DNA of 38,660 nucleotides from positions 1 through 38,660 of the IMG/VR virus record IMGVR_UViG_3300042556_000604; one strand, given 5' to 3'. The notes under the pieces are model-generated. The model was not told where the DNA came from and searched no databases. It was given only the letters and a program-made list of their open reading frames with translations. Position 1 is the first letter of the stretch; the number at the start of each line of letters is the position of its first letter. A program made the position numbers and the translations under genes. Below are positions 1 through 21,992 of the stretch, piece after piece. Origin of the DNA: a virus.

Positions 1-212
1 CCAGACGCTCCTTTTGCAAGATAGAATATGCCAGCAAACTCCTGTGCCGTTGGTCCCATTGCAGGCATTGGTATCCAGTAAGTGGGATACATCCACGGAT
101 CGCTTTTTGCGTATTCGCTGTACAGTTTGTTCACGGTCATTATTCCTTGGAGAGGGTGGATCTCCGAGGTTCCCACATAACCGCCATTTGATCTGTTCAT
201 TGAAAACTTCAT
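1..212 (-). CDS. Adhesin-tip-like protein, N-terminal part (runs off left edge)
   Basis: About 70 residues are visible before the window ends. The ATG at 212 overlaps the TGA of the LRR gene at 209-211 (ATGA), the same coupling seen at other stem/tip junctions here. A second in-frame ATG lies at 200, and a third at 140 has the best ribosome site (AAGGA). I prefer the upstream start because residues 5-13 (NRSNGGYVG) reproduce the N-terminal motif of the other tip proteins. The segment YWIPMPAMGP, then FAGIFYLAKGAS, aligns with YWLPLPVPAEG and FVGLVAIFQGAS of the LRR protein at 209-1954 and with [11 protein letters not shown] of the one at 35942-38176. It is therefore probably a third member of that receptor-binding family. 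Whether LRR repeats follow cannot be seen. Confidence 0.7.
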   Translation of the reverse strand, partial: MKFSMNRSNGGYVGTSEIHPLQGIMTVNKLYSEYAKSDPWMYPTYWIPMPAMGPTAQEFAGIFYLAKGAS

Positions 213-1954
213 CCAGTCACCGTCCATCCTTTTGCAGTTGCTATGGAGCGATCACAGGCAGCAGCGCCCCAGTTGTTCGTTATATTTATGGTGCAAGTTC
301 CCTGACTCGTCACCCCTCCAAGACCAGTGAATATTCTGTTCAGTTCTGTTGGAGACAACACGCATCCGCTGCTTGCAGAGCCTGTAAAATTGAGGCTTTT
401 TCTTACATTTTCCATTGTTGCTCTGCGTATGTCAGGACACGCGTTGAATGTGTTAAACAGAGGACCAGTGAATGAAAGAGTGGACCCACTCAAGTTGTTT
501 GGAAACTTGAATCCATCTGGCAGATGGGTGAGTGCTGTGCAATTGTTGAACATGGTATTAAAAGTAGCGGATGTGCTGGAAAAACTGTAGGCAGGCACAC
601 TAATGAGATTAAGGCAACCGTCGTACATGGAAGAAAAGGCTGTTCCAGAAAGAGTTATGCCTCCGGTTGGTGTCCTTACTCGCGGAGCGTATCTGAGGTT
701 GGAGCAACTGGCGAACAGGTTTTGCAGGTTCACCGTGACAGCACAGGTTATGCCTTCCACTTCGGTGAGTGTGAAGCACGAATTGAACAGGTTTGTTCCT
801 ACAGTGCAGTTGGGTGCATTGATGTGACCAACCCTTTCAAGACTGTCACAGTTTTGGAATGTGCTGGAAAGTGTTGTGGCAGCGTTGAATTGCCACGGTG
901 GAAACTCACGAATACACCTCTGCCGCAGAAAGCAAGAGGACCAGTCGGTAATGAGTGCGGTGTTCCACATGGGGAGATTGCTCAATATTCCGCCAGGAGC
1001 CACAGAAGGCATAGGTGTGTCGCCAATTCCCACAGATTCTGTAAATCCCTGTTGCATATTTGTGACTTTGCTTGTCACGATGGGAGGGGCTTTTACTAGT
1101 CCTTTTGCATCACCTGCCCAATACTGAAGAGTAAGGAGCGCAGGGGTCTTCAGCAGAGGGAGCGAGCGGATGTTGATTGCACCACTGATAAAGTGGCGGA
1201 AGTCTGTCTGTCGTTCAGTCCAGTTCGTTCCCGTGATCCGCTCCACACCAGTGCAAGCGTGGAGGAATCCTGGAACATTTCCGAATCCCGTGAGACTGGT
1301 CATGTGCCCGATCATGTTCACTCTTTGCAGGAGGAAATGGCGGGTGCTGTTGTTGCCCGTGAAAGACGATCCGCCTATGATTACGCTTGAGAGGTTTGGT
1401 CCAGACATTGCCACATCAAGCCATTGGGTGGTTGACTTGAAATCTATGGTTGCTACCCCTGCTTGGGAGAAAGCCCTGTTCAGATTCACGGTTGTAAGAG
1501 TCTGTCCAGTCTGTGGATACGCTTGAATCACCACCTGACGGTATCCATCAGGTGTGAGTGTGGAAGCAGGCACATCCACCCAGTTGTATTGCCGCTGTGC
1601 ATCGGTATTGGAGGTGTGTGCGGTGGTGACACCGTTGGGGTTTGCTGGTGTGGTTATTCCCCAATCAACAATGTAGTTTCCCGAACAACGGAAAGACACA
1701 AAGTTGGAGTCAGCGGTGGAACCTGTGTTGCCAGATGCACCTTGAAATATAGCCACAAGCCCCACAAATCTCTGCGTTCCCTCTGCGGGAACAGGAAGCG
1801 GCAGCCAGTAGGAAGGACGATTCCAGTCCTGAACCTCTCGCTCCACCAGATGGCATTTGTTTGGAGTAATAACACCGTATCCGTCCGTGTATCGGAGTGG
1901 ATACCGTGCGCCTCCAACATATCCATTGTTCATTCGGCTGTTTCGTCTTCTCAT
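209..1954 (-). CDS. BspA-type leucine-rich-repeat adhesin (tail fibre tip)
   Basis: A 581-residue protein. The ATG at 1954 overlaps the stop of the stem gene (ATGA); a TTG three codons upstream is possible but less likely. Residues 1-35 carry the NNGYVGG motif followed by GVITPNK. A domain shared with the 35942-38176 protein follows (WNRPSYWLPLP, FQGASGNTGSTADSNFV). The second half has roughly ten degenerate 23-26-residue repeats of the BspA/DUF285 kind, for example FNSCFTLTEVEGI, FASCSNLRYAPRV and MFNNCTALTHLP, with a conserved Cys before the Leu. The C-terminus ([32 protein letters not shown]) is almost the same as in the 744-residue paralogue. BspA repeats mediate surface adhesion in bacteria and protists. 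A receptor-binding tip role is inferred from the repeats and the position after a fibre stem. Confidence 0.8.
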   Translation of the reverse strand: MRRRNSRMNNGYVGGARYPLRYTDGYGVITPNKCHLVEREVQDWNRPSYWLPLPVPAEGTQRFVGLVAIFQGASGNTGSTADSNFVSFRCSGNYIVDWGITTPANPNGVTTAHTSNTDAQRQYNWVDVPASTLTPDGYRQVVIQAYPQTGQTLTTVNLNRAFSQAGVATIDFKSTTQWLDVAMSGPNLSSVIIGGSSFTGNNSTRHFLLQRVNMIGHMTSLTGFGNVPGFLHACTGVERITGTNWTERQTDFRHFISGAINIRSLPLLKTPALLTLQYWAGDAKGLVKAPPIVTSKVTNMQQGFTESVGIGDTPMPSVAPGGILSNLPMWNTALITDWSSCFLRQRCIREFPPWQFNAATTLSSTFQNCDSLERVGHINAPNCTVGTNLFNSCFTLTEVEGITCAVTVNLQNLFASCSNLRYAPRVRTPTGGITLSGTAFSSMYDGCLNLISVPAYSFSSTSATFNTMFNNCTALTHLPDGFKFPNNLSGSTLSFTGPLFNTFNACPDIRRATMENVRKSLNFTGSASSGCVLSPTELNRIFTGLGGVTSQGTCTINITNNWGAAACDRSIATAKGWTVTG

Positions 1955-3894
1955 ATAAACCAATGCCTCGCCACGCTTGTGCCTGTAACCGCACCAGTCA
2001 ATCCATTAAAACTTGTCACTCCATCTCCTCCTCCACCTCCTCCCGATGCTGCAATGGTGATGCCGCCAGCAACAGAAGAAGTAATAGTCACATTGGAACC
2101 TGCATTAAGAGTGATTCCACCAGAAATACCATTGAGAACTGTCACTACCCCGTTGGTGAGTGCCACCGTTCCAGTTTGGTTGGGAAAGATAATTGTTTTG
2201 TTGCTCGTTGCGGTATTTGGTGCGGATAGCGTAGTGGTGAATGCGTTGTTTGCATTTCCAAAAATTATGTCTGATGGCTCTGTTATCTCTGAGTCGGATC
2301 GTGTTCCTAGATACAGATTTCCACCAGATATTTGAACCTGACCGGTTCCACTATCCGAGTTTTGTATCACTACTTTAGGAACAGTTCCACCAACTCCAAT
2401 TCCGACTTGCTGTGGTTCAAAGATTAATTGACCGTATGGGTTGAACCACAGGGTTCTTGCAGTGGTTGATGTTCCAGAAAGAACCGTGAGTGTGGCACCA
2501 GGACTGACAATGGTGCTGACAGCCAAAGATGAATTGAAAGTGGCACCGCTGCCCACATAGAGGAATCCTGCATTGGTTATTCCTGCACTTGAGGAGTTTA
2601 CGGTAAGAGTCTGTGAAGATTGCAATCCAGCAACACTCATGCAGATTCCACCAGCAAAAGATTGGGTGGCAGTGAATGTATTTGTTACCGCAGCACACAC
2701 GCCACCAACAGCACCAGTCAATCCATTGAAAGACTGAACGCCGATGTTGGTGATTGTGACCGTACCAGTGTTTGCGTTTACGCTGATACCTGTGCCAGCA
2801 ACGGCTCGGGTGACACCAGCATTGGTGATTGTGACTGAACCGGTGGCACCCGACACGGAAATTCCGTCACCTGCCACCGCAGCGGAGACACCTTGCACCG
2901 AACCAGTCCTACCATTGAACGAGGTGACCGTATCTGCAACAATTTCGTTTTGGACAAATGCGGTAGTGGCAATCTGTGTGGTATTGGTACCAACGGCAGC
3001 AGTTGTTGATGCGGGAGTTCCTGTGAAGGTCGGAGATGCCAACAATGCATAACTTGCTGCTGCTACTCCCCCAAGTTGGGTAGAGTTGGTTGCGGTTGTG
3101 GCGGTGGTTGCGTTTCCGCTCAGAGGACCGCTGAAACCTGTTGCAGATGACTGTAGACCTGTGAATGTGTTGGCACCAAGTGATGCACCCGTCACCGCAC
3201 CTGTTGCGCCGTTGAATGAATGAACTCCGGTGTTCTGCACAACAACTGCGCCAGTGGTGGGAGAAACAGATATCCCATTTCCTGAACCAGACACAGAAGA
3301 AACTGCTCCGCCTCCGCCACCACCAACAAGATTCGTGCCTACACTTGCACTGACACCAGACAGATCAATGTAAACACCGCGATTGGTTCCACCACTTTCA
3401 AAGATACGCAATCTGTTTTGGTAAACATCAATTGCTACACCACCAGTCAAACTGGTGTTTGTGGCAGGCAAACCAAAATCTATTTGACCACCCTCGTCAC
3501 CACCAACCGTCAGCATTCGGAGGTTTTGGGCATTCAATTGAACAGAGAAAGTTCCGCCGTTTGCGCTTACGCCAGAATTGAATGATTGTAGTGCGGTGAA
3601 TGTGTTGGCTTGAGCGGCACAAACACCACCAACGGCACCGGTCAAACCATTGAAAGATGCCACAAAGTTTCGCCGTGCATATTCGTATACCGCGTTCTGT
3701 GTGGGAACTCGGTTTTGTGAAGCAGCAGAACCTGCACCCATGTCCACGCCACCGGTTATTTCTCCGCCCATCCATCGCACCGCTGCGGTGTTTCCAATAA
3801 AGAGTCTGCTGGTAGCGGTATCAAAAGCAGGCTCACCAACGGTCAGACCGGTGGGAGTTGTGGTTCCTCTTTTGAATTGTATCTGTGTTGGCAA
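1951..3894 (-). CDS. Repeat-rich tail fibre stem (cassette B)
   Basis: A 647-residue protein with a TTG start at 3894. The start is supported by AGGAG upstream and by alignment of its N-terminus (MPTQIQFKRGTTTPTGLT) with the ATG-started paralogue at 6967. Residues 1-60 form the GLT-GE-A domain (GLTVGEPAFD, RLFIGN) common in marine phage fibres. The body consists of SFNGLTGAVGG-type repeats and one copy of the phage tail fibre repeat LASPTFTGTPASTTAAVGTN, nearly identical in protein sequence to copies in the 1757-residue fibre. Gly-Gly-rich linkers occur near residues 190 and 620. The protein ends in a Trp-Phe tail (ARHWFI) that overlaps the start of the LRR tip gene. Probably a trimeric fibre shaft in the virion. 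Confidence 0.8.
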   Translation of the reverse strand: MPTQIQFKRGTTTPTGLTVGEPAFDTATSRLFIGNTAAVRWMGGEITGGVDMGAGSAASQNRVPTQNAVYEYARRNFVASFNGLTGAVGGVCAAQANTFTALQSFNSGVSANGGTFSVQLNAQNLRMLTVGGDEGGQIDFGLPATNTSLTGGVAIDVYQNRLRIFESGGTNRGVYIDLSGVSASVGTNLVGGGGGGAVSSVSGSGNGISVSPTTGAVVVQNTGVHSFNGATGAVTGASLGANTFTGLQSSATGFSGPLSGNATTATTATNSTQLGGVAAASYALLASPTFTGTPASTTAAVGTNTTQIATTAFVQNEIVADTVTSFNGRTGSVQGVSAAVAGDGISVSGATGSVTITNAGVTRAVAGTGISVNANTGTVTITNIGVQSFNGLTGAVGGVCAAVTNTFTATQSFAGGICMSVAGLQSSQTLTVNSSSAGITNAGFLYVGSGATFNSSLAVSTIVSPGATLTVLSGTSTTARTLWFNPYGQLIFEPQQVGIGVGGTVPKVVIQNSDSGTGQVQISGGNLYLGTRSDSEITEPSDIIFGNANNAFTTTLSAPNTATSNKTIIFPNQTGTVALTNGVVTVLNGISGGITLNAGSNVTITSSVAGGITIAASGGGGGGDGVTSFNGLTGAVTGTSVARHWFI

Positions 3895-3911
3895 CGGCGG
3901 CTCTCCTGACT

Positions 3912-3920
3912 AGTATTTAG
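3912..3920 (-). promoter_or_regulatory. Late-promoter-like motif CTAAATACT
   Basis: CTAAATACT on the minus strand overlaps the stop codon of the 75-residue gene and lies 17 nt upstream of the TTG start of the stem fibre. It resembles the T4 late -10 element TATAAATA. A start of transcription about 6 nt downstream would give a short leader that still contains AGGAG. Identical 9-mers occur at 14533-14541 and 21993-22001, each just before a fibre gene. Confidence 0.5.
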
Positions 3921-4144
3921 TAGGTGGAGCCATCAAGTACGGGTGCGTCTTTTTTCCGCTTCTTGCCCTCGGCGGCTTCCAATTTTGCAATTCGTGCGGC
4001 TAGTTCGTTTGCTTGCTTCAGGAGGGCTTCCTTTTCCTGTTCAAGCAGGATGGTCTTTGCTTCAAGCATGATGTTCTGCGACAGCAGTTCGGCAACGCGC
4101 TTATTCAGCAGGGGGATAAGAATGGTTTCATTTGGATTACTCAT
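3917..4144 (-). CDS. Small coiled-coil protein with basic LDG-Y tail (cassette B)
   Basis: A 75-residue protein; ATG at 4144 with AAGGAC upstream. The N-terminus (ETILIPLLNKRVAELLSQN) leads into a heptad-like helix (about residues 20-58), a Lys/Arg cluster (KKRKKDAP) and the tail VLDGSTY. It is paralogous to the 73-residue protein at 14549-14770, with the same layout and the same place directly before a stem fibre. No known function. Its position and size suggest a fibre-associated factor such as a chaperone, trimerisation helper or connector; this is inference only. Confidence 0.75.
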   Translation of the reverse strand: MSNPNETILIPLLNKRVAELLSQNIMLEAKTILLEQEKEALLKQANELAARIAKLEAAEGKKRKKDAPVLDGSTY

Positions 4145-4174
4145 GGATATAGTCCTTTCACTATTGGATCAAAA

Positions 4175-5599
4175 TCAAGTATACGAACCACCGTCTATGG
4201 CAGTAATGGTGACTGCTCCGCTAGTCACGGTGAAGTTAAACGAATCAAAACTGGCTAGACCCTTCACGGATGATGTGGCATTCTGTATTCTGTATTTACC
4301 GCTTGAGATTGTTGATACGCCGTTACCGCTAGCATCGGCAATCAGGAGTTCTCCCCATGCAAAAAGTCCTGCGCCATCTGCTTGAATCAAGTGTCCTTGT
4401 GTATTGCTTACTGCAAGTTTGGATAGAGCCGATCCTGCGGCAGCAGCATACAGTATGTCGCCCTTTGCATACGAACTGAATCCCGTGCCTCCATATGTTG
4501 CGCCAACCACGGTTCCTTGCCACACACCTGTAGAAATGGTTCCAACCTTTGTGAGGTTGGAGTTTACAATATTTGTCCCAAGGCTTGCACCATCAATGAC
4601 TACCGTTCCATTGATGTAGTAGGCAGGATTTACGGACTTGGTAAGGTTTATGTCTTGGTTGAAGTTCCATGCAGCAGCAAGAGTGGTGCCTGATGTGGTG
4701 TTTGACCAAACAATGGTCTTGTCTGTTGCGCCCTTCAGGGAGATTCCACCGCCATCAGCCGTGGTGTCTGTGGGAGAGGTGACGCTTCCCAACTCAATGT
4801 TCTTGTCATCAACCGAGATGGTTGTGGAGTTTATGGTGGTTGTGGTGCCGTTGACCACAAAGTTTCCTGCCACCGTGAGGGTGGCACCCACATACAGATT
4901 GGAGTCAAATGTAGAACCGCCGTATGCCTGAATGCTGGTAGTGTTCAGGCTGCTGCTTGTGATTCCCTGTGTGGCTGTGAGTAGACGGGAGAACGATGCG
5001 GTGGCTCCGTTGAGGGTGCCGGATACAGTGACTCCTGCGGCAAATCGTGCAACTCCACCAACATCAAGCGTTGACTCTAGAGTGGTTCCACCAACGACAT
5101 CAAGAATTCCACCAATATCAACTCTTCCTCCAAGCGTTGCTCCACCGTTTACCTGTAGTGTTCCACCGAAGGTAGAGCCGATGGACGAATACAGATAAGA
5201 TGTGGTGATTCCTTGGCTTGCAGTCAACAGTCTGCTAAATGTGGCAGTCGCTCCGTCTACGGTGCCAGAGAATGTTACTCCGCCGCTGAATGTGTTTGTG
5301 CCTGTGAATGTGTTGTTGAGCGGCAGGATGTTTGTTCCTGTGCCCATCTGAAATTCTGTTGTCCATCCGCTGTTCGCTGTGGTGCCAATCAAGGCATAGT
5401 ATGCAGACACTCCGCTCACATACACCATCATGCCGCGAGTACGGCGACGGTCAAAGATGTTGTTCAGATCAGCAGTGGTTCCAACGGTTCGCAGACCACC
5501 AAGCCCGTGGGCGGTGTCAAACAGGGGAAAAGTCTGTGTGTCCGTGAAAGGACTTATCTGACTGTTGATTCTTACATTTGTGCTTGGAAAGTCTGCCAT
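4175..5599 (-). CDS. Tail fibre protein with hinge-type domain (cassette B)
   Basis: A 474-residue protein; ATG at 5599, 15 nt after the previous stop. Residues 1-80 include FDRRRTRGMMVYVSGVSAYY, a short N-terminal domain also recognisable in the 675-residue paralogue at 14788-16815. The middle has beta-rich repeats (ATFSRLLTASQGITTS twice). These are followed by a block widespread in marine T4-like fibres (VNGTTTTINSTTISVDDKNI) and a segment with GATYGGTGFSSY near residue 370. The C-terminus reads ITAIDGGSYT. The paralogue matches in order across the whole length. Probably a homotrimeric fibre or baseplate-proximal fibre segment; exact place in the virion unknown. Confidence 0.75.
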   Translation of the reverse strand: MADFPSTNVRINSQISPFTDTQTFPLFDTAHGLGGLRTVGTTADLNNIFDRRRTRGMMVYVSGVSAYYALIGTTANSGWTTEFQMGTGTNILPLNNTFTGTNTFSGGVTFSGTVDGATATFSRLLTASQGITTSYLYSSIGSTFGGTLQVNGGATLGGRVDIGGILDVVGGTTLESTLDVGGVARFAAGVTVSGTLNGATASFSRLLTATQGITSSSLNTTSIQAYGGSTFDSNLYVGATLTVAGNFVVNGTTTTINSTTISVDDKNIELGSVTSPTDTTADGGGISLKGATDKTIVWSNTTSGTTLAAAWNFNQDINLTKSVNPAYYINGTVVIDGASLGTNIVNSNLTKVGTISTGVWQGTVVGATYGGTGFSSYAKGDILYAAAAGSALSKLAVSNTQGHLIQADGAGLFAWGELLIADASGNGVSTISSGKYRIQNATSSVKGLASFDSFNFTVTSGAVTITAIDGGSYT

Positions 5600-5614
5600 G
5601 TTAGTTTTTCCCTA

Positions 5615-6967
5615 TCATTCAGAATAGATGGAAATTGATGTAATGTCTGTTGGTTCTGCTGAACGATACACTTTGTAATTTGCGGCAAATCCTGAAGCAT
5701 TTGTTACTGAAAGGGTTGCTCCCAGAGGAGCGCCACCGTTTCCTGTCATTCCAAAACCAAATCCATCCTTTGATTCTTTCCAAGACGATATTGTGTTGTA
5801 GTAATCATGCACAAGAATGTACAAATACTGAAGTCCTCCTCCGCTTGCTTGGCTCGGAGTAAATGTCAGAGTTGTTCCGCTTGTGTTTGCAAACGAAAGA
5901 GCAGCATTGGTGCTTGTAATCATTCTGGCACTTTGACCCATTCCAGTGCTCACCAACTGTGATCTGTTTGTGATTGATGTTCCACTGGTGTATCCGAAAT
6001 ATATGTTTGAATACCAGTTTGTTGTTCCAAAACTGTAGGTTGCAGTTGCACCAGTGCTAATATTTGATGGAATTGAAGAACCACCCGCTGCCTGATACGC
6101 AGTCCACTGGCTAGCCCTGGCGGTTACAGAGAAAGAACTGCCGATTGTGTAGCCGCGAATTTCTGGCAAAGATCCCACTCTGTTGCTTGTTGGACCGAAT
6201 GAAGTGGCTCCCATCACGGTGCCAGACGCTATTCCGCCTCCACCCGTGTAGACCACAGACATTCCGAGCGAGTCAATATTGCTAGAATTTGACACATTCC
6301 AAGAGAAAGTATACAGTCCCAAATCAGCAGCAGTCTCTCCTAGTTCTAGGTTTCTTGTGTCGTATTGGGGAGCAATGGTCGCTGATATAAAAGACACATT
6401 CTGATAGGAAAACAAGAGGCTTTCAAGAATATCAAACACGGTTTTGCCTGCCAGATTTGTTCCGTTTGCGATTCCGCCAACCGATCCTGCGTTTGTTGGG
6501 GTTGCCGATCCCCATGTGGCACCCGAAACCAAAAGAGCGCCGGTAGAACCACCGAAAATGGCAACCACAGATTTCTTCCAGTCTCCACTCAACCCGAGAG
6601 TGCGAACACCGTTGTTTGTGACAGTGATGCTGCCTGACGCAGACGAAACCCCAATATTTGAACCACCTAGAAGATTCAGTGTTCCTGTCAGGGAGTTCAG
6701 GCTAGCCACACCAGAGGTGTTTGTAGCCACATAATCCGTAACATAGTTCTTTACCGCTGCAAGACTGGGAATCTGTAGTGTAAGCCCTGCCGCAATGTCT
6801 GAAGACAGACCGCTGATACGGGCACCAATCCACGCTGCCGTTACTCCTGCGCCCCGACCGATGTGAAGCGTCTGATCGGTAGTGTTGAACGCTGGCTCGC
6901 CAAGCGTGAGTCCCGAAGCCGCTGTTGGAGCCGCCGTTCCACGGCGTATAATGATTGTTGTTGGCAT
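5615..6967 (-). CDS. Tail fibre protein with N-terminal GLT-GE-A domain (cassette B)
   Basis: A 450-residue protein; ATG at 6967 preceded by AGGAAG. The N-terminus (MPTTIIIRRGTAAPT, SGLTLGEPAFN, LHIGRGAG) is the domain shared with three other fibres here. Residues 95-120 carry an SLNSLTGTLNL repeat. About residue 180, a helix-like segment (GKTVFDILESLLFSYQ) opens a beta-sandwich region (LYTFSWNVSNSSNIDSLGM). The 562-residue protein at 16835-18523 has the same helix plus beta layout (GKSPIEVILDALVEY), so the two are paralogues in duplicated cassettes. Structural role inferred. Confidence 0.75.
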   Translation of the reverse strand: MPTTIIIRRGTAAPTAASGLTLGEPAFNTTDQTLHIGRGAGVTAAWIGARISGLSSDIAAGLTLQIPSLAAVKNYVTDYVATNTSGVASLNSLTGTLNLLGGSNIGVSSASGSITVTNNGVRTLGLSGDWKKSVVAIFGGSTGALLVSGATWGSATPTNAGSVGGIANGTNLAGKTVFDILESLLFSYQNVSFISATIAPQYDTRNLELGETAADLGLYTFSWNVSNSSNIDSLGMSVVYTGGGGIASGTVMGATSFGPTSNRVGSLPEIRGYTIGSSFSVTARASQWTAYQAAGGSSIPSNISTGATATYSFGTTNWYSNIYFGYTSGTSITNRSQLVSTGMGQSARMITSTNAALSFANTSGTTLTFTPSQASGGGLQYLYILVHDYYNTISSWKESKDGFGFGMTGNGGAPLGATLSVTNASGFAANYKVYRSAEPTDITSISIYSE

Positions 6968-7005
6968 GAGTGCTTCCTGTATTCAAATATTAGCAGTCTA
7001 TTCCC

Positions 7006-7019
7006 TTTATTATTTATGC
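7006..7019 (-). promoter_or_regulatory. Possible T4-late-like promoter CATAAATAATAAAG
   Basis: In the 75-bp gap 6968-7042, the longest in the window, the minus strand reads CATAAATA, one base from the T4 late consensus TATAAATA. It lies about 45 nt upstream of the fibre ATG at 6967 and leaves room for a leader with AGGAAG. No clear hairpin terminator is seen in the gap. Single example of this form, so only moderate support. Confidence 0.4.
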
Positions 7020-7042
7020 GCCGCGCAACAGTCCGTCTATGG

Positions 7043-7366
7043 TCAGGTAATTTCTAAAACAGAAACAAAGGCATGGATGTATCCTGTTGCTCCGGCGGTG
7101 CAGCGCAGAGTGTTGCCTGTTTCCAACACAATAGGCGCGTCAAGTGCTTGCAGGGTGGACGAAAACGGCACTGCTGCTCCAGTGATGAGTGAGTATCCTG
7201 TAGAGCCTTTCACGGCTTCCAGTGTGGCAGTGGTGTTGTTGACACCGTTCACATTGCTCAACATGACACCGTTCACGATGGTGGTGGTTGAGGCTGGCGT
7301 GGTGTAGATGGTGGTTGCAGCAGTGGTGCCGAGAATGGTTCCGAAACTCTTGTAGGTGTCTGGCAT
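7043..7366 (-). CDS. Small beta-rich virion-type protein (107 residues), paralogue of 35406-35726
   Basis: ATG at 7366 with a strong AAGGAGA site. It is rich in Thr, Ala and Val and starts MPDTYKSFGTILGTTAATTI. The paralogue at 35406-35726 starts MPNTYRSYPVVMGTTAATAL; both share LQALD, then a segment ending SVLEIT. No signal peptide or catalytic motif is visible. The size and hydrophobic strand pattern would fit a small decoration or fibre-associated protein, but I know no assigned function. Both copies lie downstream of a tip protein gene, which suggests a link to the adhesin cassettes. Confidence 0.65.
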   Translation of the reverse strand: MPDTYKSFGTILGTTAATTIYTTPASTTTIVNGVMLSNVNGVNNTTATLEAVKGSTGYSLITGAAVPFSSTLQALDAPIVLETGNTLRCTAGATGYIHAFVSVLEIT

Positions 7367-7379
7367 GATGTCTCCTTAG

Positions 7380-7733
7380 TTAAGCAAATCTTCTCACTGG
7401 ATGCGATGGCGGTGGTATAAGAGGGAGGTACTGTTTTTGTGCTTCGTACAATTCAGTGGTGGTTCGTAAATTGGTGTGCCATCGAGAATCCTTCACTCCA
7501 CCACTTGCATCGAAAATGTTCCCACTATTTTTAAGTATTTCTGGTTCTGGCGGCGGCTCTATACTTATATGCGGACCCATGTGGTCTACAGCCACCCCCG
7601 TGTTTTCCACAAAACAGGTTACGCCTTGAACTTGAACATAATGCCCAAGTCCTGCACCCACAAGACGAGACTCCATCTCTTCTTTGGTATCAGTTCTCAA
7701 ATAATAATCGTAGTAATTATACAAGTTATACAC
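7380..7733 (-). CDS. Unknown phage protein (117 residues)
   Basis: GTG start at 7733 overlapping the end of the lectin-like gene by 8 nt (GTGTATAA). It begins MYNLYNYYDYYLRTDTKEEM and ends with a proline-rich stretch. Short proteins with a YYLRT-type start and a late H-x-N-x-R motif (here HTNLRTT, near residue 87) recur beside fibre genes in marine phages, from memory of such genomes. No function is known to me. A small accessory structural protein is a guess from context. Confidence 0.55.
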   Translation of the reverse strand: MYNLYNYYDYYLRTDTKEEMESRLVGAGLGHYVQVQGVTCFVENTGVAVDHMGPHISIEPPPEPEILKNSGNIFDASGGVKDSRWHTNLRTTTELYEAQKQYLPLIPPPSHPVRRFA

Positions 7734-9243: not shown

Positions 9244-9250
9244 AGTGTCC

Positions 9251-12200
9251 TCACATGAACCAGCCTCTGGCGTTGCTCTTGGTTTCCAGAGCGACGGTTC
9301 CGCTTTCGTTTGGAAGGGTTATGGTCTTGTCGCTCCCTGATGGATTAGCCGTTAGTGTGGTGTAACGAATCGGAAAAGAGGTTCCAGTGAATTCCAAAGC
9401 GACTGGTGTGTAATCTTCTCCATTAGCAGATTTTGTCCCGAGAACCAGATCAGAGCCATTGACAGTGACTGAACCGTCAGCATTTCCAGTTCCAGCATTC
9501 AAAAGCAACTCTGCATAGGTGCCTAGTCCAATTCCTCCACTAGGATTAGACGAATACAGACCAATGTTTCCAGAAGCATAAACATTTAAAGGGCAATTTC
9601 CAGCAAAACCAGAGGTTGTTCCTGTGTATACATTAAAAATAGAGTTGTTCAACAGATTCAGCGGTCCCCCGCGAACGGTGAGTGGAGCGCCGCTTGCAGA
9701 GCCAAGCGTGGTTCCGCGATCCACGATCAAGCCTCCAGCATTGTCTATGTTGGATGATACTCTGGTCTGCCGCAATCCGTATTCAAAAACCACTCCTTGT
9801 GGTGCGCCAAATGTGGTTCCTCCTCCGTTTACATACAGTCCACCACTATTGATGGTCTGCAAGCCATTGAATGTGTTCGCACCAAGCGATGCACCCGTGA
9901 CCGCACCAGTGGCTCCGTTGAATGACAGGACACCACTATTCGTGATTGTAACCGTACCAGTATTTGCATTTACGCTGATGCCAGTTCCCGCAACCGCTCG
10001 GGTGACACCAGCATTGGTGATGGTAACGGAACCAGTGGCACCTGAAACAGTTATGCCGTCACCGGCAACAGCAGCAGAGACACCTTGAACTGAACCAGTG
10101 CGCCCGTTGAAAGCAGTGACTGTATCAGCAACTATTTCATTCTGAACGAAAGCAGTAGTAGCAATCTGTGTTGTATTGGTTCCAACAGCAGCAGTGGTTG
10201 ATGCAGGAGTTCCGGTGAAGGTTGGAGATGCTAGCAGTGCATAACTGGCAGCAGCAACACCACCCAATTGAGAAGCATTGGTTGCACTTGTGGCATTTCC
10301 AGTCAATGGACCGCTAAAGCCCGTAGCCGATGTCTGTAGACCTGTGAAGGTGTTTGCTGATCCTAGTTGTGCCCACCCACTGGCAGCGGTATTTCCTAGA
10401 GCAGACGAATTGGAAGCAGTTCCCGTCAACGAAGCAGTAATAGTACCAGCAGAGAAGTTTCCGCTGGCATCACGGAATACTATTGTGGAAGCAGTGTTTG
10501 CATTGGTTGCGTTTGATGTAACAGTGAATGTAGCGGCACTGGATTGATTGGCAGTAAATGTCTGAGTACCAGAAATTCCGTTGCCGCTGGTGTTCATCGT
10601 CAGGGTTCCATTGTTCACCGTTGGAACAGTCGCATTTATTGTGACTGCACCCGTTCCGCCTGTGGGGGAGATGGTGACATTGGAACCAGCGACGATTGAA
10701 CCCACACCTGATATAGCACCAGTGCTGCCGTTGAATGACTGCACACCATTATTTGTTACTGTTACAGCACCTGTGCTTGCATTGACTCCAATACCAGTTC
10801 CTGCTGCAAGACTGGTGACACCGCTATTGGTTATGGTAACCGTACCAGTGTTTGCGTTTACACTGATGCCAGTGCCAGCAACCGCTCGGGTGACACCAGC
10901 ATTGGTGATGGTTACAGAACCAGTGGCACCTGATACGGTTATGCCGTCACCAGCAACGGCAGCAGAAACACCCTGTACCGCACCCGTGCGACCGTTGAAT
11001 GAGGTTACGGTGTCGGCAATAATCTCGTTCTGAACAAATGCGGTGGTAGCAATCTGTGTGGTATTGGTGCCAACGGCGGCAGTGGTTGATGCAGGAGTCC
11101 CCGTAAAGGTTGGGGATGCTAGCAATGCATAGTTGGCAGCAGCAACACCACCCAATTGGGTGGAATTGGTTGCGGTGGTGGCAGTGGTTGCGTTTCCAGT
11201 CAACGGACCACTAAAACCTGTAGCCGATGTCTGTAGACCAGTGAATGTATTTGCTGCCGCGAGTTGTGCCCATCCACTAGCAGCAGTATTTCCCAAAGCA
11301 GACGCATTTGATGCGGTTCCAGTCAGTGCAGCAGTAATAGTTCCTGCGGAGAAGTTGCCACTGGCATTGCGGAACACAATGGTGGAAGCGGTGTTTGCAT
11401 CAGTGGCATTGGATGCCACTGTGAATGTAGCGGCACTGGATTGATTTGCGGTGAATGTTTGAGTACCAGAAATCCCGTTGCCACTGGTGTTCATCGTCAG
11501 GGTTCCATTGTTCACCGTTGGAACCGTTGCGTTGATGGTAACAGCACCCGTGCCACCTGTGGGTGAGATGGTGACATTTGAACCAGCGACGATTGAGCCT
11601 ACGCCAGTGATTGCACCAGTGCTGCCGTTGAAAGACTGAACTCCATTGTTGGTGACAGTAACAGCACCAGTGCTTGCATTTACGCCGACGCCGGTTCCTG
11701 CTGCAAGACTAGTGACACCGCTATTGGTTATGGTAACCGTACCAGTATTTGCGTTTACACTGATGCCCGTGCCAGCAACGGCTCGGGTGACACCAGCATT
11801 GGTGATGGTTACAGAACCAGTGGCACCTGATACGGTTATGCCGTCACCTGCCACTGCTGCCGATACACCTTGTACCGAACCAGTGCGTCCATTGAACGCG
11901 GTTACGGTGTCGGCAACAATCTCGTTCTGAACGAAAGCAGTGGTGGCAATCTGTGTGGTGTTGGTTCCAACAGCAGCGGTGGTTGATGCAGGAGTTCCCG
12001 TAAAGGTTGGTGATGCAAGGAGTGCCCAAGAAGCGGCGGCTGTTCCACCCAATTGGGTGGAATTGGTTGCGGTGGCTGCGTTACCTGTGATGCTGATGCC
12101 CCAAGTGCCGCTAGCGCCTCCGCCAGTGGTTCCTGCCTTGTTCGCAAGAGAATTGGTTATGGTTGTGGAGAAGTTTGCGTCGTTTCCTAGAGCAGCAGCC

Positions 12201-14524
12201 AGTTCATTCAGTGTGTCTAGTGCAGCGGGCGCAGCATTCACCAAATTTGTAATTTCAGTTCTAACAAATTGAGTGGTGGCAACCTGTGTGGTATTGGTTC
12301 CTGATGTGGCAGTAGGTGCTGTGGGTGTTCCTGTGAGGCTTGGAGACACCAAAGTAATTCCAGCAGCAGCAGAAATGCCGCCAGTAAAGGTTTGCAGAGC
12401 AGTGAATGTATTCGCTGTTCCTGTTCCGACTGCACCGATTTCACCAAGAGTCCATGAAACATCTGCGCTGCCGTTCACTGACTTTCCAGTGGAACCAATG
12501 GTTATGGTTCTGCTCGTTCCCCAGTTCGCTGTGGTAATGTCGGCGGAACCATTGAAAGCGGTTCCGTTGATGTTTCTAGCGGTCTGTAGGGTGGTTGCAG
12601 TGGTGGCATTTCCTGTTACAGCACCTGTAATAGGACCACTGAATCCAGTTGCTGATGTCTGTAGACCCGTGAAGGTGTTTGCACCTAGAGATGCACCCGT
12701 GACCGCACCGGCGTTCCCGTTGAACGACAGGACACCAGTATTTGAAATGGTCACAGAACCAGTTGCAGCCGATACTGAAATTCCACTGCCTGCCACTGCT
12801 GCCGATACACCTTGTACAGAACCAGTGCGACCATTGAAAGCGGTCACTGTGTCAGCAACAATTTCATTCTGAACGAAAGCAGTAGTTGCTATTTGTGTGG
12901 TATTGGTTCCAACAGCAGCAGTGGTTGATGCAGGAGTCCCCGTAAAGGTTGGTGATGCTAGCAGTGCGTAACTAGCAGCAGCAACCCCACCCAATTGTGT
13001 GGAATTGGTTGCGGTTGTGGCATTTCCTGTGAGAGGACCACTGAAACCCGTAGCCGATGTTTGTAGACCTGTAAATGTATTCGCGCCAAGAGATGCACCC
13101 GTCACTGCACCAGTGGCTCCGTTGAAGGACTGAACACCTATGTTCGTGACGGTCACGGCACCAGTTCCCGCACTGACGGCAACACCCGTTCCTGCGGCAA
13201 GACTTGTGACACCACTGTTTGTGATAGTAACTGTACCAGTGTTAGCCGAAACGGAAATTCCTGTGCCAGCAACCGCTCGGGTGACACCCGCATTTGTAAT
13301 AGTTACTGCGCCAGTAGCACCAGAAACGCTTATGCCGTCGCCTGCTACCGCTGCTGATACTCCCTGAACTGAACCAGTTCTACCATTGAACGAGGTGACC
13401 GTATCCGCAACAATTTCGTTTTGAACAAATGCAGTAGTGGCAATCTGTGTGGTGTTGGTTCCAACGGCGGCAGTGGTTGATGCAGGGGTTCCCGTGAAAG
13501 TGGGAGATGCCAGTAGTGCGTAACTGGCGGCGGCAACGCCTCCCAACTGAGTTGAGTTGGTTGCTGTAGTGGCAGTGGTTGCGTTTCCAGTAAGAGGACC
13601 GCTGAAACCAGTAGCCGATGTCTGTAGACCTGTGAATGTATTTGCACCAAGGGATGCGCCTGTGACTGCACCTGTTCTTCCATTGAAAGATGTAACTATG
13701 CCATCAGATACTATTGCAGTTTTTAGATTTGTAAACGAAATGAATCCACTGGTCAGTCCAGGATCTGATCCACACGCTCCTTGAAAGCCATTGAGATTAA
13801 ATTGTGGAAGTGCTGAAGTTGCATCTCCAGCACCAAATCCTGTTGGTGGTCCTTCTGTGTTTATTTCCGTGTACAATGCAACCTTCAGGGCAGGAAGGTT
13901 TGCAAGGTACATTGAATTGGGCGTTCCGCTCTGTTGAAATGCAATCCAGTCTTCCGGACCTATCTTTTTCGACGGCATCGTTGAGCCACCGAACAGGTAA
14001 TTTAGATTGATGTGAAATGTGTTTCCCGCCGGAGACATGGGGAATGTTATTCCAAGACCGGCAGACAATCCAACTGTGCCGGTTTTTCCGTTTACAGATG
14101 AAACAAGAGTGGTAATTCGTGTTCCGTTTAGGGTGATTCCTGAAGTAGAGATGCCGAGTGGAGTATTAACATATGCATTTCCAAATTGCACATAAGGACT
14201 TGTCAGAGCATCAATAGAGTCAACTCCAATGTTTGCGTAGAAAAACGCACTAGTGTCAAATTGTGCTTGACCAGAAACGAGAATACTTTCATTGAAAGTT
14301 GCCGATTCATCGAAATACACAGGCTGAAGGAAGGCTGCTCTTCCGGTGAATGTGTTTCCAGCACCAAGACCAACCAACTCAAGGGTGTTAGCAGTGCTGC
14401 CAATGAACATTCGATTCTGAACAAGGTTGACAGCCAATTCACCTGTAGTAAGACCAGATGCTCCATCAAATGTGGGAATTCCACCTGCTCCATTGGTGCT
14501 GTATTTGATCTTGATTTTTGCCAT
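9251..14524 (-). CDS. Giant repeat-rich tail fibre stem, 1757 residues (cassette A)
   Basis: ATG at 14524. The N-terminus MAKIKIKYSTNGAGG then GLTTGELAVN and RMFIGST is a variant of the GLT-GE-A domain. The rest is built from a few modules repeated many times: SFNGATGAVTGASLGANTF, five copies of LASPTFTGTPASTTAAVGTN plus one variant (SLTGTPTAPTATSG), and blocks with ATGSVTITNAGVTRAV. The repeat modules are of the phage tail fibre repeat type. A unit of about 295 residues is tandemly duplicated (10141-11925). The protein ends in ARGWFM, the Trp-Phe tail also seen on two other stems before a tip gene. There is no Shine-Dalgarno before the start, only the motif at 14533. Its length suggests a long trimeric shaft. 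Confidence 0.85.
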   Translation of the reverse strand: MAKIKIKYSTNGAGGIPTFDGASGLTTGELAVNLVQNRMFIGSTANTLELVGLGAGNTFTGRAAFLQPVYFDESATFNESILVSGQAQFDTSAFFYANIGVDSIDALTSPYVQFGNAYVNTPLGISTSGITLNGTRITTLVSSVNGKTGTVGLSAGLGITFPMSPAGNTFHINLNYLFGGSTMPSKKIGPEDWIAFQQSGTPNSMYLANLPALKVALYTEINTEGPPTGFGAGDATSALPQFNLNGFQGACGSDPGLTSGFISFTNLKTAIVSDGIVTSFNGRTGAVTGASLGANTFTGLQTSATGFSGPLTGNATTATTATNSTQLGGVAAASYALLASPTFTGTPASTTAAVGTNTTQIATTAFVQNEIVADTVTSFNGRTGSVQGVSAAVAGDGISVSGATGAVTITNAGVTRAVAGTGISVSANTGTVTITNSGVTSLAAGTGVAVSAGTGAVTVTNIGVQSFNGATGAVTGASLGANTFTGLQTSATGFSGPLTGNATTATNSTQLGGVAAASYALLASPTFTGTPASTTAAVGTNTTQIATTAFVQNEIVADTVTAFNGRTGSVQGVSAAVAGSGISVSAATGSVTISNTGVLSFNGNAGAVTGASLGANTFTGLQTSATGFSGPITGAVTGNATTATTLQTARNINGTAFNGSADITTANWGTSRTITIGSTGKSVNGSADVSWTLGEIGAVGTGTANTFTALQTFTGGISAAAGITLVSPSLTGTPTAPTATSGTNTTQVATTQFVRTEITNLVNAAPAALDTLNELAAALGNDANFSTTITNSLANKAGTTGGGASGTWGISITGNAATATNSTQLGGTAAASWALLASPTFTGTPASTTAAVGTNTTQIATTAFVQNEIVADTVTAFNGRTGSVQGVSAAVAGDGITVSGATGSVTITNAGVTRAVAGTGISVNANTGTVTITNSGVTSLAAGTGVGVNASTGAVTVTNNGVQSFNGSTGAITGVGSIVAGSNVTISPTGGTGAVTINATVPTVNNGTLTMNTSGNGISGTQTFTANQSSAATFTVASNATDANTASTIVFRNASGNFSAGTITAALTGTASNASALGNTAASGWAQLAAANTFTGLQTSATGFSGPLTGNATTATTATNSTQLGGVAAANYALLASPTFTGTPASTTAAVGTNTTQIATTAFVQNEIIADTVTSFNGRTGAVQGVSAAVAGDGITVSGATGSVTITNAGVTRAVAGTGISVNANTGTVTITNSGVTSLAAGTGIGVNASTGAVTVTNNGVQSFNGSTGAISGVGSIVAGSNVTISPTGGTGAVTINATVPTVNNGTLTMNTSGNGISGTQTFTANQSSAATFTVTSNATNANTASTIVFRDASGNFSAGTITASLTGTASNSSALGNTAASGWAQLGSANTFTGLQTSATGFSGPLTGNATSATNASQLGGVAAASYALLASPTFTGTPASTTAAVGTNTTQIATTAFVQNEIVADTVTAFNGRTGSVQGVSAAVAGDGITVSGATGSVTITNAGVTRAVAGTGISVNANTGTVTITNSGVLSFNGATGAVTGASLGANTFNGLQTINSGGLYVNGGGTTFGAPQGVVFEYGLRQTRVSSNIDNAGGLIVDRGTTLGSASGAPLTVRGGPLNLLNNSIFNVYTGTTSGFAGNCPLNVYASGNIGLYSSNPSGGIGLGTYAELLLNAGTGNADGSVTVNGSDLVLGTKSANGEDYTPVALEFTGTSFPIRYTTLTANPSGSDKTITLPNESGTVALETKSNARGWFM
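10141..11925 (-). repeat. Tandem ~0.89-kb super-repeat inside the giant stem gene
   Basis: Two consecutive units of 888 and 897 nt, measured from one conserved point (tctgaac at 10141, 11029 and 11926). Each includes the module NGTLTMNTSGNGISGTQTF, a VASNATDANTASTIVF-type block and one tail fibre repeat. Protein identity is very high. Nucleotide differences are mostly synonymous, although stretches such as the one around 10584 and 11481 are almost unchanged. Confidence 0.8.
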
Positions 14525-14532
14525 AGTGTATC

Positions 14533-14541
14533 AGTATTTAG
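14533..14541 (-). promoter_or_regulatory. Late-promoter-like motif CTAAATACT
   Basis: It lies 8 nt upstream of the ATG of the giant stem gene, in the short gap after the 73-residue gene. No Shine-Dalgarno separates it from the start codon. If it acts like a T4 late promoter, the transcript would have a leader of only a few bases. Confidence 0.5.
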
Positions 14542-14548
14542 CGACAGA

Positions 14549-14770
14549 TTAGTAGACCTGTCCGTCCAAATGAGGCTCTTCACGCTTTTTGCGCTTGGAC
14601 TGTGATTCTATTTTGGATTGCAGTTCTTCTATTTGCTTGTGTAGAAAAGCATTCCGTTCCCGTTCTATGAACAGGTTTGCTTCAAGGATCAGATTCTGAT
14701 TTGTAAGTTCTCTAAACTTGTTTTGTAAAAAAGGAATGACAACAGTTTCATTGTAATTAGGTTCACTCAT
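14549..14770 (-). CDS. Small coiled-coil protein with basic LDG-Y tail (cassette A)
   Basis: A 73-residue protein; ATG at 14770 with AAAGGAG. It starts MSEPNYNETVVIPFLQNKF, runs through a charged helix (about residues 20-55) and ends KRKKREEPHLDGQVY. The copy at 3917-4144 has the same plan (VIP/LIP start, helix, Lys/Arg cluster, LDG-x-x-Y end) and also precedes a stem fibre. Function unknown. A role in assembling or joining the adjacent fibre is inferred from this repeated placement. Confidence 0.75.
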   Translation of the reverse strand: MSEPNYNETVVIPFLQNKFRELTNQNLILEANLFIERERNAFLHKQIEELQSKIESQSKRKKREEPHLDGQVY

Positions 14771-14787
14771 GGGGATTCTCCTTTAGA

Positions 14788-16815
14788 TCAAGACCAGACA
14801 CCACCGTCTATGGTGGCTTCAATTTGTGTGCAACTCAAAATATTTGTATTCGCATTAAATGTTATTCCAGAAGCCTTGTCAATCCACAGGTCTAGTGCGT
14901 CACCAGCATCAGCCACAAAAGTAAGGAACATTTCTCCATTAGTGGTGTTTCTGTCCTGAACTTTAACTTTGTTTGCCGTTCCTACGGTGAGTCCCGTTGG
15001 AGAAGTAAAAACAGGAACTCCAGAAGCATTGGCAAGCAGAATTTGTCCATTCGTACCAGCAGCGGTTGCAGTAAGACTAGTGGCTGTCTTATAAATTACT
15101 CCATTTGTTGCAACCCCACTTATGTCTGCTCCTGCACCACCGTAAGCAAGACCAATCGCGGTTGCGTTCCATGTTCCGTTGGTAACGGTTCCCACGGATG
15201 CCAGGCTTGATCCAACAACTCCACTTCCAAGGAATGTTGATGCAAGAGCAGTGGCTCCATTTATTCTGTATGCATAACCAGAATCTAAATTGAAGTGCTG
15301 ATTGCTTGTCCAAGCACCACCATTATCGTTTTTCCACAGGAGTGTTTTCTGTGTAGGATTTCCTGTTGTGTTTACTGCAATACCTGACCCATCCATTGCA
15401 GAATCAGTACCGGTAGAGCCACCTCCAATTCCGTTGTTTCCAAGTTCAAAAATCTTGTCGTCTATCTGAACATTGGTTGAATTTATTGTGGTCTGTGTTC
15501 CGTTTACAAACAGGTTTCCACTGACAGTAAGAGTAGCACCTATGGTAGCATTTCCAACTGTATCAAAAGTGGTGTTTCCTGCACTGCCAATAATAGTCAG
15601 TGTTTCGTTAACAGCAACTTTACCGTTGAAAGTAATTCCGCCAGCAGCAGACAGTCCTGCGGTGAGGGTTTGCAGACCAGTGAATGTGTTTGCACCAAGA
15701 GATGCGCCTGTGGCATTTAGTGTGATTGCTGCCGATCCATTGTAGGGACCACCTGATAGGAGGTGACCAGCAGACAGGTTTGCAAGGTCACTGCCCAGTG
15801 CAATACCAGAAATGGTTGAATTGGCTAGTTTGGTATTCGCTATTGAACCAGTGGGAATTGTGGTGGTCAGAGTGACATTTGCAGTACCATCAAAGTTGAC
15901 TGCTGGAGCCGTAATATCACCAGAAAGCGAGAACCCTCTGGGTGTATTTAGAGCGGTTGCAGTAGAAGCATTTCCTGTCAGGCTGCCAGTGAATGTAGCG
16001 GCACGAACCGCGCCTGCAAAATCAACTGCTCGTTCAAATGTGGTTCCCACACGAACATACATTACTCCCTGTGTTCCGCCTGGCAGAACTCCTCCGCTCG
16101 GACCAATCAGCACATTCCCATTGAAACCGGCATTGGTCAGAACAGCAAAGGAAATTCCCTGACCAAGAGATGTGCCAGCAGGAATATTTGCTAGTGGATA
16201 TGTTACTCCACCCAAAGTTCCAAATATGTTTTCTGTATGCAATCGTGCGTAACTGGCACCCGAAATACCTGCAAGATTCCACGAATCGTTTGCAATTCCG
16301 TTTAGATTGCCAGTAAATGTGGTGGCAGTTACAGATCCACCAAATGTGGCATTTCCATTAAGAGACAACCCATTCATTCCATAGACAAGACCCGCAAATG
16401 TGGCACCATTAGACACCCACAGATTAGATGTGGTGATTCCTTGCAGTGCGTTCACAAGTCTGGTGAATGTCGCACCAGCAGCGGATATTCCCGTGACAAA
16501 CTCTGATCCTGTTGCTGAACCAGACGCAAACTCTACGAGATCACCGTTACCTGTTCCACCACGATACCAATACACATATGCCTGAGTGACACCACCTGGA
16601 ACTCCTGGTGTGCTGTTTGCAACAATTATTACCTTTTGACCAATGTAACGAACACCGGGAACAATCAAGCCATTTACTAGTGCAACACCAGCGGCGGTTG
16701 TTCCAAGCGGATCTTCCCACGGACCCAGATACGCATCTGCTGGTCGTGGAACGAGAACCTTGAAACCCTTTGCGGGTTCATTGTTTGCTTGGAATGCAGA
16801 GTATCCTATAGGCAT
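14788..16815 (-). CDS. Tail fibre protein with hinge-type domain (cassette A)
   Basis: A 675-residue protein; ATG at 16815 with AGAGGACAT. The N-terminal ~90 residues include VPGVRYIGQKVIIVANST and VYWYRGG, matching in layout the N-terminus of the 474-residue paralogue. Shared blocks follow in the same order: ATFTRLVNALQGITTS, then VNGTQTTINSTNVQIDDKIF (about residue 435), GLAYGGAGADIS (about residue 575) and the C-terminal IEATIDGGVWS. The middle has several TTFTGNLNG / TFTGSLTGNASTA segments typical of phage fibre repeats. Probably a fibre subunit upstream of the stem in the assembly path; exact place unknown. Confidence 0.75.
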   Translation of the reverse strand: MPIGYSAFQANNEPAKGFKVLVPRPADAYLGPWEDPLGTTAAGVALVNGLIVPGVRYIGQKVIIVANSTPGVPGGVTQAYVYWYRGGTGNGDLVEFASGSATGSEFVTGISAAGATFTRLVNALQGITTSNLWVSNGATFAGLVYGMNGLSLNGNATFGGSVTATTFTGNLNGIANDSWNLAGISGASYARLHTENIFGTLGGVTYPLANIPAGTSLGQGISFAVLTNAGFNGNVLIGPSGGVLPGGTQGVMYVRVGTTFERAVDFAGAVRAATFTGSLTGNASTATALNTPRGFSLSGDITAPAVNFDGTANVTLTTTIPTGSIANTKLANSTISGIALGSDLANLSAGHLLSGGPYNGSAAITLNATGASLGANTFTGLQTLTAGLSAAGGITFNGKVAVNETLTIIGSAGNTTFDTVGNATIGATLTVSGNLFVNGTQTTINSTNVQIDDKIFELGNNGIGGGSTGTDSAMDGSGIAVNTTGNPTQKTLLWKNDNGGAWTSNQHFNLDSGYAYRINGATALASTFLGSGVVGSSLASVGTVTNGTWNATAIGLAYGGAGADISGVATNGVIYKTATSLTATAAGTNGQILLANASGVPVFTSPTGLTVGTANKVKVQDRNTTNGEMFLTFVADAGDALDLWIDKASGITFNANTNILSCTQIEATIDGGVWS

Positions 16816-16834
16816 ATGTCCTCTTCCTACTTAA

Positions 16835-18523
16835 TCAGGGTGCCGATGTTTCATCCGACCAAATCGTTCCATTGAATGCGACAACTAGGTTTTGATTGCC
16901 TCCATAAGCACTACCAAGAGTCATACTGTAAATAACATAACCATGAGCCACGCCTGATACATCATCAGCCTGAGCCAATGATATTTGATTAAACGAGTCG
17001 TTTTCTTGAACAGAATTTCCAAATAGAGTTTCATTACCAGCGTCTATATTCACCACTCCTTTGATAGACTGGTTTTTATCATTTAGGGTTAGACCTCGTG
17101 GAAGGGCTATGACAAATGTTGAGTATTGCGTTCCTGATGCCATATTAAAGGTTGATCCAGCAACCCCCGCTGCAATCGCGGTACCAGAAGTTGGTCCCAA
17201 GAACGAATTTGGAAGACTTCTTACAGCGGCAGAGGTGGTTGGAACGCTTGCTGTTGGTCCATAGAAAATTCTCTTTCGGAACGACACATATGTGTTTGTT
17301 CCGTCTGCAAGCATCTGTATACCGTTTCCAGTGTTTGCAGTCAGACCTTCTTTTGCGAAGAATCGGAACATCATTGAGGTAAGACCAGCAGCAGGATTTA
17401 CGGGATTGTTCACCGTAAATGTTGTTCCTGTTGATCCCACATTTGGAGTAACCAAAACAAAGTTTACTCCGTTTTCAGTATGAGTAGTGCTGTACCAGTT
17501 TGTGCCGTTGTTTGGCGAGTACTGCATTCCCACTTCTGCAATATTGTGGTATGTAGTACTCATGTTGGGTCCAACAGCAATGGTCACATTTACACTTGTG
17601 CCTGTGTTTCCGCGTTCTCTCCGTCTTCCAATTTCTCCTATATGGACACCCGTGAGGGTGGTTGTCCCCGTAACTCCAGTTGCACTTACTGTTGCGGTGG
17701 GATTAGCGAATGTCTGTGGCTGTATTGTGGTGTAGGTAAGTGTAAATCCAGTTGGCTGACCAGAATTGTCCTTGACTGTATATCTGTAGTGGTATGGAGT
17801 GGTTATCCACTGCGTGATGTTTGCCGTATGGGTTGCACTTGCGGTGTATCCTCCTCCATTTACGCTCGGAAACTCTGCAAATGGAGCGGATGTATCGTGG
17901 AATGGAGATCCGCTGATGGAAGTTGTTGACCACCCACCAGGATTGGCAATAGCGGCGGCAAGACTGGCGGCTTGTTGCCATTCAAGTGTTGATCCATTAG
18001 CAGTATATCCTGGAGTGAGCAAGTTATAACTAAAAGTCAATCCGAGAGAGACATTTCCCTGAACTCCATACAAAATTGTGTTTGCCTGTGTATGCGAAGT
18101 GAGATGTATTCTCATGGTAATATACTCTACCAACGCGTCCAAAATTACTTCAATTGGACTCTTTCCCGCTGATAGTATTGTTTCTCCTGTCCTAAATCTT
18201 CCAAAACTTTTATTATCACTCAGGTTTAGTGTCACATTGGATGTGAAAAGAGTGGCACCAGCAATGGCAGCAGCAAGATCGTATATGCCTTTGACGGTGC
18301 TGAGAGTTGCAGCGGCAGTAATGCCTGTGGGACCGCCCTGAATGTTCAGCAGATTTCCGTTTGTGATGCCTGCTCCGACCCATACAGAGCCGCCATCTGC
18401 ATTTCCAATGTACACTCTGTTTGCAAAAGTGCCACCAGTCTGACCCATGAAAGCAAATTCACCAAAGGTCAATCCGCTTGGGACTGTAGTGGTTGTGGTG
18501 CGCTTGATCCTAATAATTGCCAT
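16835..18523 (-). CDS. Tail fibre protein with N-terminal GLT-GE-A domain (cassette A)
   Basis: A 562-residue protein; ATG at 18523, 2 nt after the previous stop, with GGAGGAG upstream. The N-terminus MAIIRIKRTTTTTVPSGLTF, then FAFMGQ and RVYIGNADGG, is the shared fibre domain. After residue 100, FGRFRTGETILSAGKSPIEV and ILDALVEY introduce a long beta-rich region with a YHYRYTVKDNSGQ segment, ending in SDETSAP. It matches the layout of the 450-residue protein at 5615-6967, although the central region is longer. Structural protein by family resemblance and context. Confidence 0.75.
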   Translation of the reverse strand: MAIIRIKRTTTTTVPSGLTFGEFAFMGQTGGTFANRVYIGNADGGSVWVGAGITNGNLLNIQGGPTGITAAATLSTVKGIYDLAAAIAGATLFTSNVTLNLSDNKSFGRFRTGETILSAGKSPIEVILDALVEYITMRIHLTSHTQANTILYGVQGNVSLGLTFSYNLLTPGYTANGSTLEWQQAASLAAAIANPGGWSTTSISGSPFHDTSAPFAEFPSVNGGGYTASATHTANITQWITTPYHYRYTVKDNSGQPTGFTLTYTTIQPQTFANPTATVSATGVTGTTTLTGVHIGEIGRRRERGNTGTSVNVTIAVGPNMSTTYHNIAEVGMQYSPNNGTNWYSTTHTENGVNFVLVTPNVGSTGTTFTVNNPVNPAAGLTSMMFRFFAKEGLTANTGNGIQMLADGTNTYVSFRKRIFYGPTASVPTTSAAVRSLPNSFLGPTSGTAIAAGVAGSTFNMASGTQYSTFVIALPRGLTLNDKNQSIKGVVNIDAGNETLFGNSVQENDSFNQISLAQADDVSGVAHGYVIYSMTLGSAYGGNQNLVVAFNGTIWSDETSAP

Positions 18524-21988: not shown

Positions 21989-21992
21989 CGCA

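Follow-up and report, generated by a model that had tools for sequence, protein, structure and literature searches.

Two fibre gene sets of an uncultured T4-like phage and the predicted joints between their products

The nearest known systems to the genes described here are the branched receptor-binding proteins and the long tail fibre of T4. In Klebsiella and other phages (K1-5, G7C), branched receptor-binding proteins employ a T4gp10-like docking domain together with conserved short peptides at the N-terminus (Latka et al., 2019; PMC6872550). The present locus resembles these systems in having exchangeable tips that would be held via short conserved terminal peptides, and in the reuse and swapping of modules. 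A short conserved N-terminal peptide, NGYIG, is indeed present on its exchangeable proteins; searching the cassette proteins against Pfam and PHROG detected no T4gp10-like docking domain. In the branched systems there is a shared docking partner, whereas here the predicted partners are head-to-tail neighbours in gene order, and one joint appears to consist of a C-terminal body and an N-terminal socket of ~90 aa, in two forms that do not mix. The T4 long tail fibre, gp34-gp35-gp36-gp37 (PMC5537660), is likewise made of several gene products placed end to end, as proposed here for another T4-like phage. No sequence match to gp34-37 is among the reported hits, and the PHROG matches are to unnamed tail-fibre families. 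Phage Sf14, with its two long tail fibres (PMC11821841), also has more than one fibre type; both of its fibres have been seen on the virion, whereas the sets described here are known from genes alone.

The window, the whole stretch of 38,660 nucleotides analysed (IMG/VR record IMGVR_UViG_3300042556_000604), is contained with 99.98% identity in an 80.5-kb IMG/VR contig (3300044858_001565; L050-L053). The phage is uncultured and is T4-like by its replication and head genes. Its DNA polymerase matches cyanophage gp43 at 49% over 100% of the length and also has a PHROG DNA polymerase match, and sheath, tube, portal and gp23-like proteins are recognizable by eye in the 80.5-kb contig. This T4-type polymerase, together with the head and tail genes, places the phage in the T4 superfamily. 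Elsewhere in the window, an open reading frame at 32076-32885 has about eight 45-bp tandem repeats (RNRERxAAVxKAW units) followed by an HNH-like end, and the product of 33263-34195 resembles a UV-damage endonuclease, both judged by eye.

An earlier note described ten open reading frames as a five-gene adhesion cassette present twice. All ten are on the minus strand in the order it gave, with position 1954 as the start of copy B's gene 5. The fibre-related genes of the window are as follows.

18526-18975, minus strand: D, 149 aa; head of WNG type, tail SLDGGEF at the C-terminus; in other phages joint blocks split this gene
16835-18523, minus strand: A1, 562 aa; Mtd_N-like head at 18338-18523, plug A body at 16838-18238
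14788-16815, minus strand: A2, 675 aa; socket A at 16507-16815, body 2_C at 14791-15552, C-terminal tail TIDGGVWS at 14791-14814
14549-14770, minus strand: A3, 73 aa; small coiled coil of A type, tail LDGQVY
9251-14524, minus strand: A4, stem, 1757 aa; Mtd_N-like head, SFNGxTGAV repeats, C-terminal tail NARGWFM at 9254-9274
7726-9243, minus strand: A5, tip, 505 aa; N-terminal peptide NRGFIG...G at 9139-9243, laminin-G-like end
7380-7733, minus strand: X of set A; no homology to its counterparts in sets B and C
7043-7366, minus strand: Y of set A, 107 aa; family phrog_1276
5615-6967, minus strand: B1, 450 aa; Mtd_N head at 6743-6967 (Pfam Mtd_N, 1.8e-6), plug B body at 5618-6529
4175-5599, minus strand: B2, 474 aa; socket B at 5330-5599, body 2_C at 4178-4900, tail IDGGSYT at 4178-4198
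3917-4144, minus strand: B3, 75 aa; small coiled coil of B type, tail LDGSTY
1951-3894, minus strand: B4, stem, 647 aa; Mtd_N head, stem repeats as in A4, tail VARHWFI at 1954-1974
209-1954, minus strand: B5, tip, 581 aa; NNGYVG peptide at 1850-1954, BspA/DUF285-like leucine-rich repeats
38173-38660, minus strand: C4, collagen-like stem that runs past the edge of the window (551 aa at L052 5910-7565); tail TLSWFFA
35942-38176, minus strand: C5, tip, 744 aa; homologue of B5 (BLAST E 2e-55) with leucine-rich repeats and an NNGYIA peptide
35719-35931, minus strand: X of set C
35406-35726, minus strand: Y of set C; 56% to Y of set A (7043-7366)

The small genes X and Y come after each tip. X of sets B and C is widespread, and matches to X of set A (7380-7733) are confined, among the fetched loci, to its own contig. 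A third set, comprising a stem with a WFFA end, a tip, X and Y, occupies 35406-38660. Immediately outside the window, on its left, L050 6297-7964 encodes another B tip. Thus, where at least two complete fibre systems, which would widen host range, had been proposed, at least two related fibre gene sets are indeed present, but the five genes do not make a complete set, as both A and B continue with X and Y and there is the third stem, tip, X and Y set. D, upstream of set A, shares the DGG tail with A2 and B2. The Mtd_N family (PF18454) is present in the B1 head at 28.2 bits (Pfam cut-off 26.3); B4 scores 22.0, below the cut-off, and the heads of A1 and A4 have no Pfam match and are here called Mtd_N-like. 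Tips B5 and C5, with BspA/DUF285-like repeats, match leucine-rich repeat proteins. In this locus, domains of the Mtd_N and BspA types would belong to a larger assembly.

Sets A and B probably represent a single segmented fibre in two versions that diverged long ago; its parts would be chained by orthogonal, movable end-joints whose binding is predicted from sequence. Each gene product would be one fibre segment, and the segments would be joined head to tail in gene order; we infer both the physical binding and the chain order on the virion. In a first joint, a short C-terminal DGG-aromatic tail would pair with the Mtd_N-type head of a following segment. In a second, the C-terminal body of gene 1, termed the plug, would bind the first ~90 residues of gene 2, termed the socket, and forms A and B of this joint would not mix. 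In a third, the C-terminal WF tail of the stem would hold the N-terminal NGYIG peptide of an exchangeable tip.

The motif [ILVM]DGGx[FYW] ends 80 non-redundant open reading frames, where 0.05 are expected. Counting the next gene either directly or after a coiled coil, an Mtd_N-type gene follows a DGG-ending gene in 100 of 128 cases, versus 38 of 2140 other genes (p 3e-115). Numbers of DGG and Mtd_N genes, coils excluded, are ~1:1 in most loci. In the window, the gene immediately before B1 lacks a DGG end, although B1 has an Mtd_N head. A literature search for C-terminal motifs in cyanophage fibres returned nothing.

The small coiled coils A3 and B3 may serve as an assembly factor or as a connector. 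At 73-75 aa, coiled-coil-like, one per set and encoded just before the stem, they could be assembly chaperones rather than structural parts, of the kind of T4 gp57A, a protein that they presumably resemble; many T4-like contigs retain, at another location, a relative that lacks the DGG tail. A3 and B3 nonetheless carry the C-terminal tail of larger fibre-type proteins, and the chaperone role, while a real possibility, is to our mind somewhat doubtful. That small coiled coils and several further proteins in a single phage bear the same tail can also be read differently: each DGG-tailed protein would dock on its own at a shared baseplate component, and gene order would reflect nothing but operon history. 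The occurrence of an Mtd_N gene after a DGG gene far above chance, and the ~1:1 numbers outside the coils, make such separate docking unlikely.

At the other end of the stem, an NGYIG-headed gene comes next after a WF-ending gene in 14 of 17 cases, versus 5 of 2004 others (p 4e-29). Two of these five are second tips and three follow near-WF ends. Tips that bear the NGYIG peptide, partnered with WF stems, vary in fold, and none of 62 leucine-rich tips without the peptide comes after a WF stem.

The chief finding lies at the gene 1/gene 2 boundary. Plug and socket each have two matched forms, A and B. Junctions were gathered from IMG/VR by searching gene 2 heads and gene 1 bodies; since most loci were retrieved with the socket, presence of a plug upstream was not built in. 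Taking junctions as independent, the forms agree in 102 of 103 (38 A-A, 64 B-B and one mixed; p 2e-27), and after clustering at 70% in all but one (28 A-A, 49 B-B, one mixed; p 2e-20). Sets A and B of the window both fit this rule. The lone mixed junction, L267, has a weak socket match (E 1e-3). Eight sockets have no recognized plug upstream, and several of these are truncated or in other contexts. Contexts around the junctions are diverse, with 18 and 24 unrelated clusters upstream and 11 and 19 downstream. In three loci (L266, L273 and L296) one protein has a socket at its head and a plug at its end, in series. In L357, socket A and plug B are in one protein and socket B begins the next gene; therefore the form match holds between neighbours, not within a protein.

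Plug and socket halves are always adjacent on the DNA, and linkage alone could for that reason keep them together. One fibre would then end in the plug, as its receptor-binding part, and a second, separate fibre would start with the socket as its base, and the block would move as one piece because its halves sit side by side. The plug model, moreover, resembles Ig-type sandwiches, a fold also used for adhesion, although the PDB matches are weak. On the other hand, the forms do not mix even though members of one form are often just ~25-35% identical to the window copy, and in L357 the next gene still matches despite different forms within one protein. Absence of the block also leaves a fused protein, which a terminal adhesin plus a new base explains less simply. 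Linkage alone, with two separate fibres, seems rather improbable.

Loci that differ by the presence of the block bear on the head-to-tail model. The pairings, insertions and fusions are facts of the sequences. In six loci (L074, L075, L079, L231, L232 and L086) the block is absent and the gene 1 head is fused to the gene 2 body. A-form blocks are found inside D, with gene 1-2 unsplit, in L081, L085 and L087, and B-form blocks inside D in L069 and L298. Sisters L085 and L086 differ at this place by a block of ~1.5 kb, with flanks 94% and 79-89% identical. The linker repeat SFNGLTGAV flanks this block and was considered as a general recombination site; of the block boundaries, just 6 of 102 on the upstream side and 9 of 94 on the downstream side have it, and because it is so rare there, a role in recombination is retained only as a local possibility at L085/L086.

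In the model, the plug-stop-start-socket block would be a movable unit. Its insertion would split a fibre protein into two that rejoin non-covalently, its removal would leave a single fused protein, and recombination could insert, remove or swap joints. We know of no precedent for a joint block that is inserted, removed or moved between fibre genes. Whether the block is a movable genetic element in its own right, encoding a protein joint, inserting in fibre genes and existing in at least two orthogonal forms with predicted rejoining, is in our judgment evenly poised. One form would then be common to T4-like, T5-like, Bacteroides and jumbo phages.

Socket B was examined in 11 records of an annotated phage collection, consisting of ten isolates and the uncultured record LR756502. 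In six of the 11, plug B, as detected by HMM, ends the gene just upstream: LR756502 (E 3e-48), Tunturi_5 (1e-12), SJC03 (8e-12), DAC19 (4e-11), pVp-1 (2e-6) and Ceto (4e-4). In PaBG and Yoloswag the ending of the upstream gene is similar to plug B by eye alone. The isolates phi18:1, Lu11 and HRDY3 show no plug upstream by HMM, and a large part of the first ~30 residues is missing from their sockets. A3, B1 and plug A have no relatives among the records of this collection, and A2 has weak partial matches there and nothing better.

Structure predictions differ for the two halves. The plug predicted alone folds well (pLDDT 84). A search with its fold gave no PDB match at E < 0.001; in BFVD it found 25 phage proteins, mostly uncharacterized or tail proteins, those of crAss-like phages included. 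The socket predicted alone is poorly ordered, its conserved first ~35 residues being without structure, and the modelled disorder is consistent with an arm that would fold on a putative binding partner. Gene 1, gene 2, plugs and sockets have no relatives among solved structures.

Compared gene by gene, sets A and B vary in their relatedness. The first four genes had been taken as paralogues, which holds for genes 2, 3 and 4. Gene 3 copies are clear paralogues (BLAST E 1e-13, 46% identity in the alignment). The match between gene 2 copies (E 2e-11, 41% over 176 aa) is also significant and is confined to the C-terminal part; the first ~100 residues differ, and profile comparison of the heads gives E 2.4e-4 and a probability of 44%. 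Gene 4 copies align at E 5e-71, mostly through common stem repeats. For gene 1 the relationship is remote: A1 and B1 have no direct BLAST match among the window proteins (shuffle z 4.6), and were rejected as plain BLAST paralogues as the match is not significant. The B1 N-terminus is nearer to B4 (E 9e-10) than to A1. A1 and B1 are linked through a relative, L054 6240-7469 (36% over 175 aa to A1, 26% over 474 aa to B1), and profile comparison of gene 1 bodies A and B gives E 3e-5 and a probability of 73%. Gene 5, as had been noted, differs in fold between the sets (laminin-G-like vs leucine-rich repeats), yet the N-terminal peptide is common to A5 and B5.

The coiled-coil tree resolves the A copies and the B copies as distinct clades (support 98/97 and 98/95), and a larger tree agrees. 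The tree of gene 2 bodies is largely sorted by set, with weaker support than the coiled-coil tree. Sets A and B occur together in the window contig and in G002, L067, L074, L075 and L079. Related genomes also include some with set A alone (G003) or set B alone (L231 and L232), contigs that may be incomplete. The separate clades, the co-occurrence in several phages and the phages with A alone or B alone argue that the sets are old; judged by these comparisons, A and B are separate lineages, predicted to have been gained and lost. The two five-gene sets of the earlier note therefore exist, but not as a simple or recent tandem copy: a recent duplication into two redundant systems, which would account for the alike gene order and the paralogy of genes 2, 3 and 4, is rejected by trees that place A and B, together in several phages, in separate old clades, and with gene 1 copies lacking direct similarity it is very improbable.

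Two further observations concern relatives of these genes. A coiled-coil relative without the DGG tail is found at L050 1917-2102 and in many T4-like contigs (L101-L142); its position is conserved, with a conserved gene on either side, one of which looks RuvC-like by eye. In L054/L055 (G002), at 20446-25021, gene 4 of the B set appears split around three short lectin-like genes which end in LRGRFGL-type motifs; a similar ending is found in L081 and L085.

Two candidate joint families can now be named that have no match in solved-structure searches, and the duplicated cassette would give way to an old, modular and recombining system. The comparison suggests that many phages may build their fibres as head-to-tail chains with a few interchangeable joints. 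If true, there would be simple sequence rules for which fibre proteins join, in phages whose fibre genes mostly lack annotation, and this would account for the splitting, fusion and reshuffling of such genes with assembly preserved.
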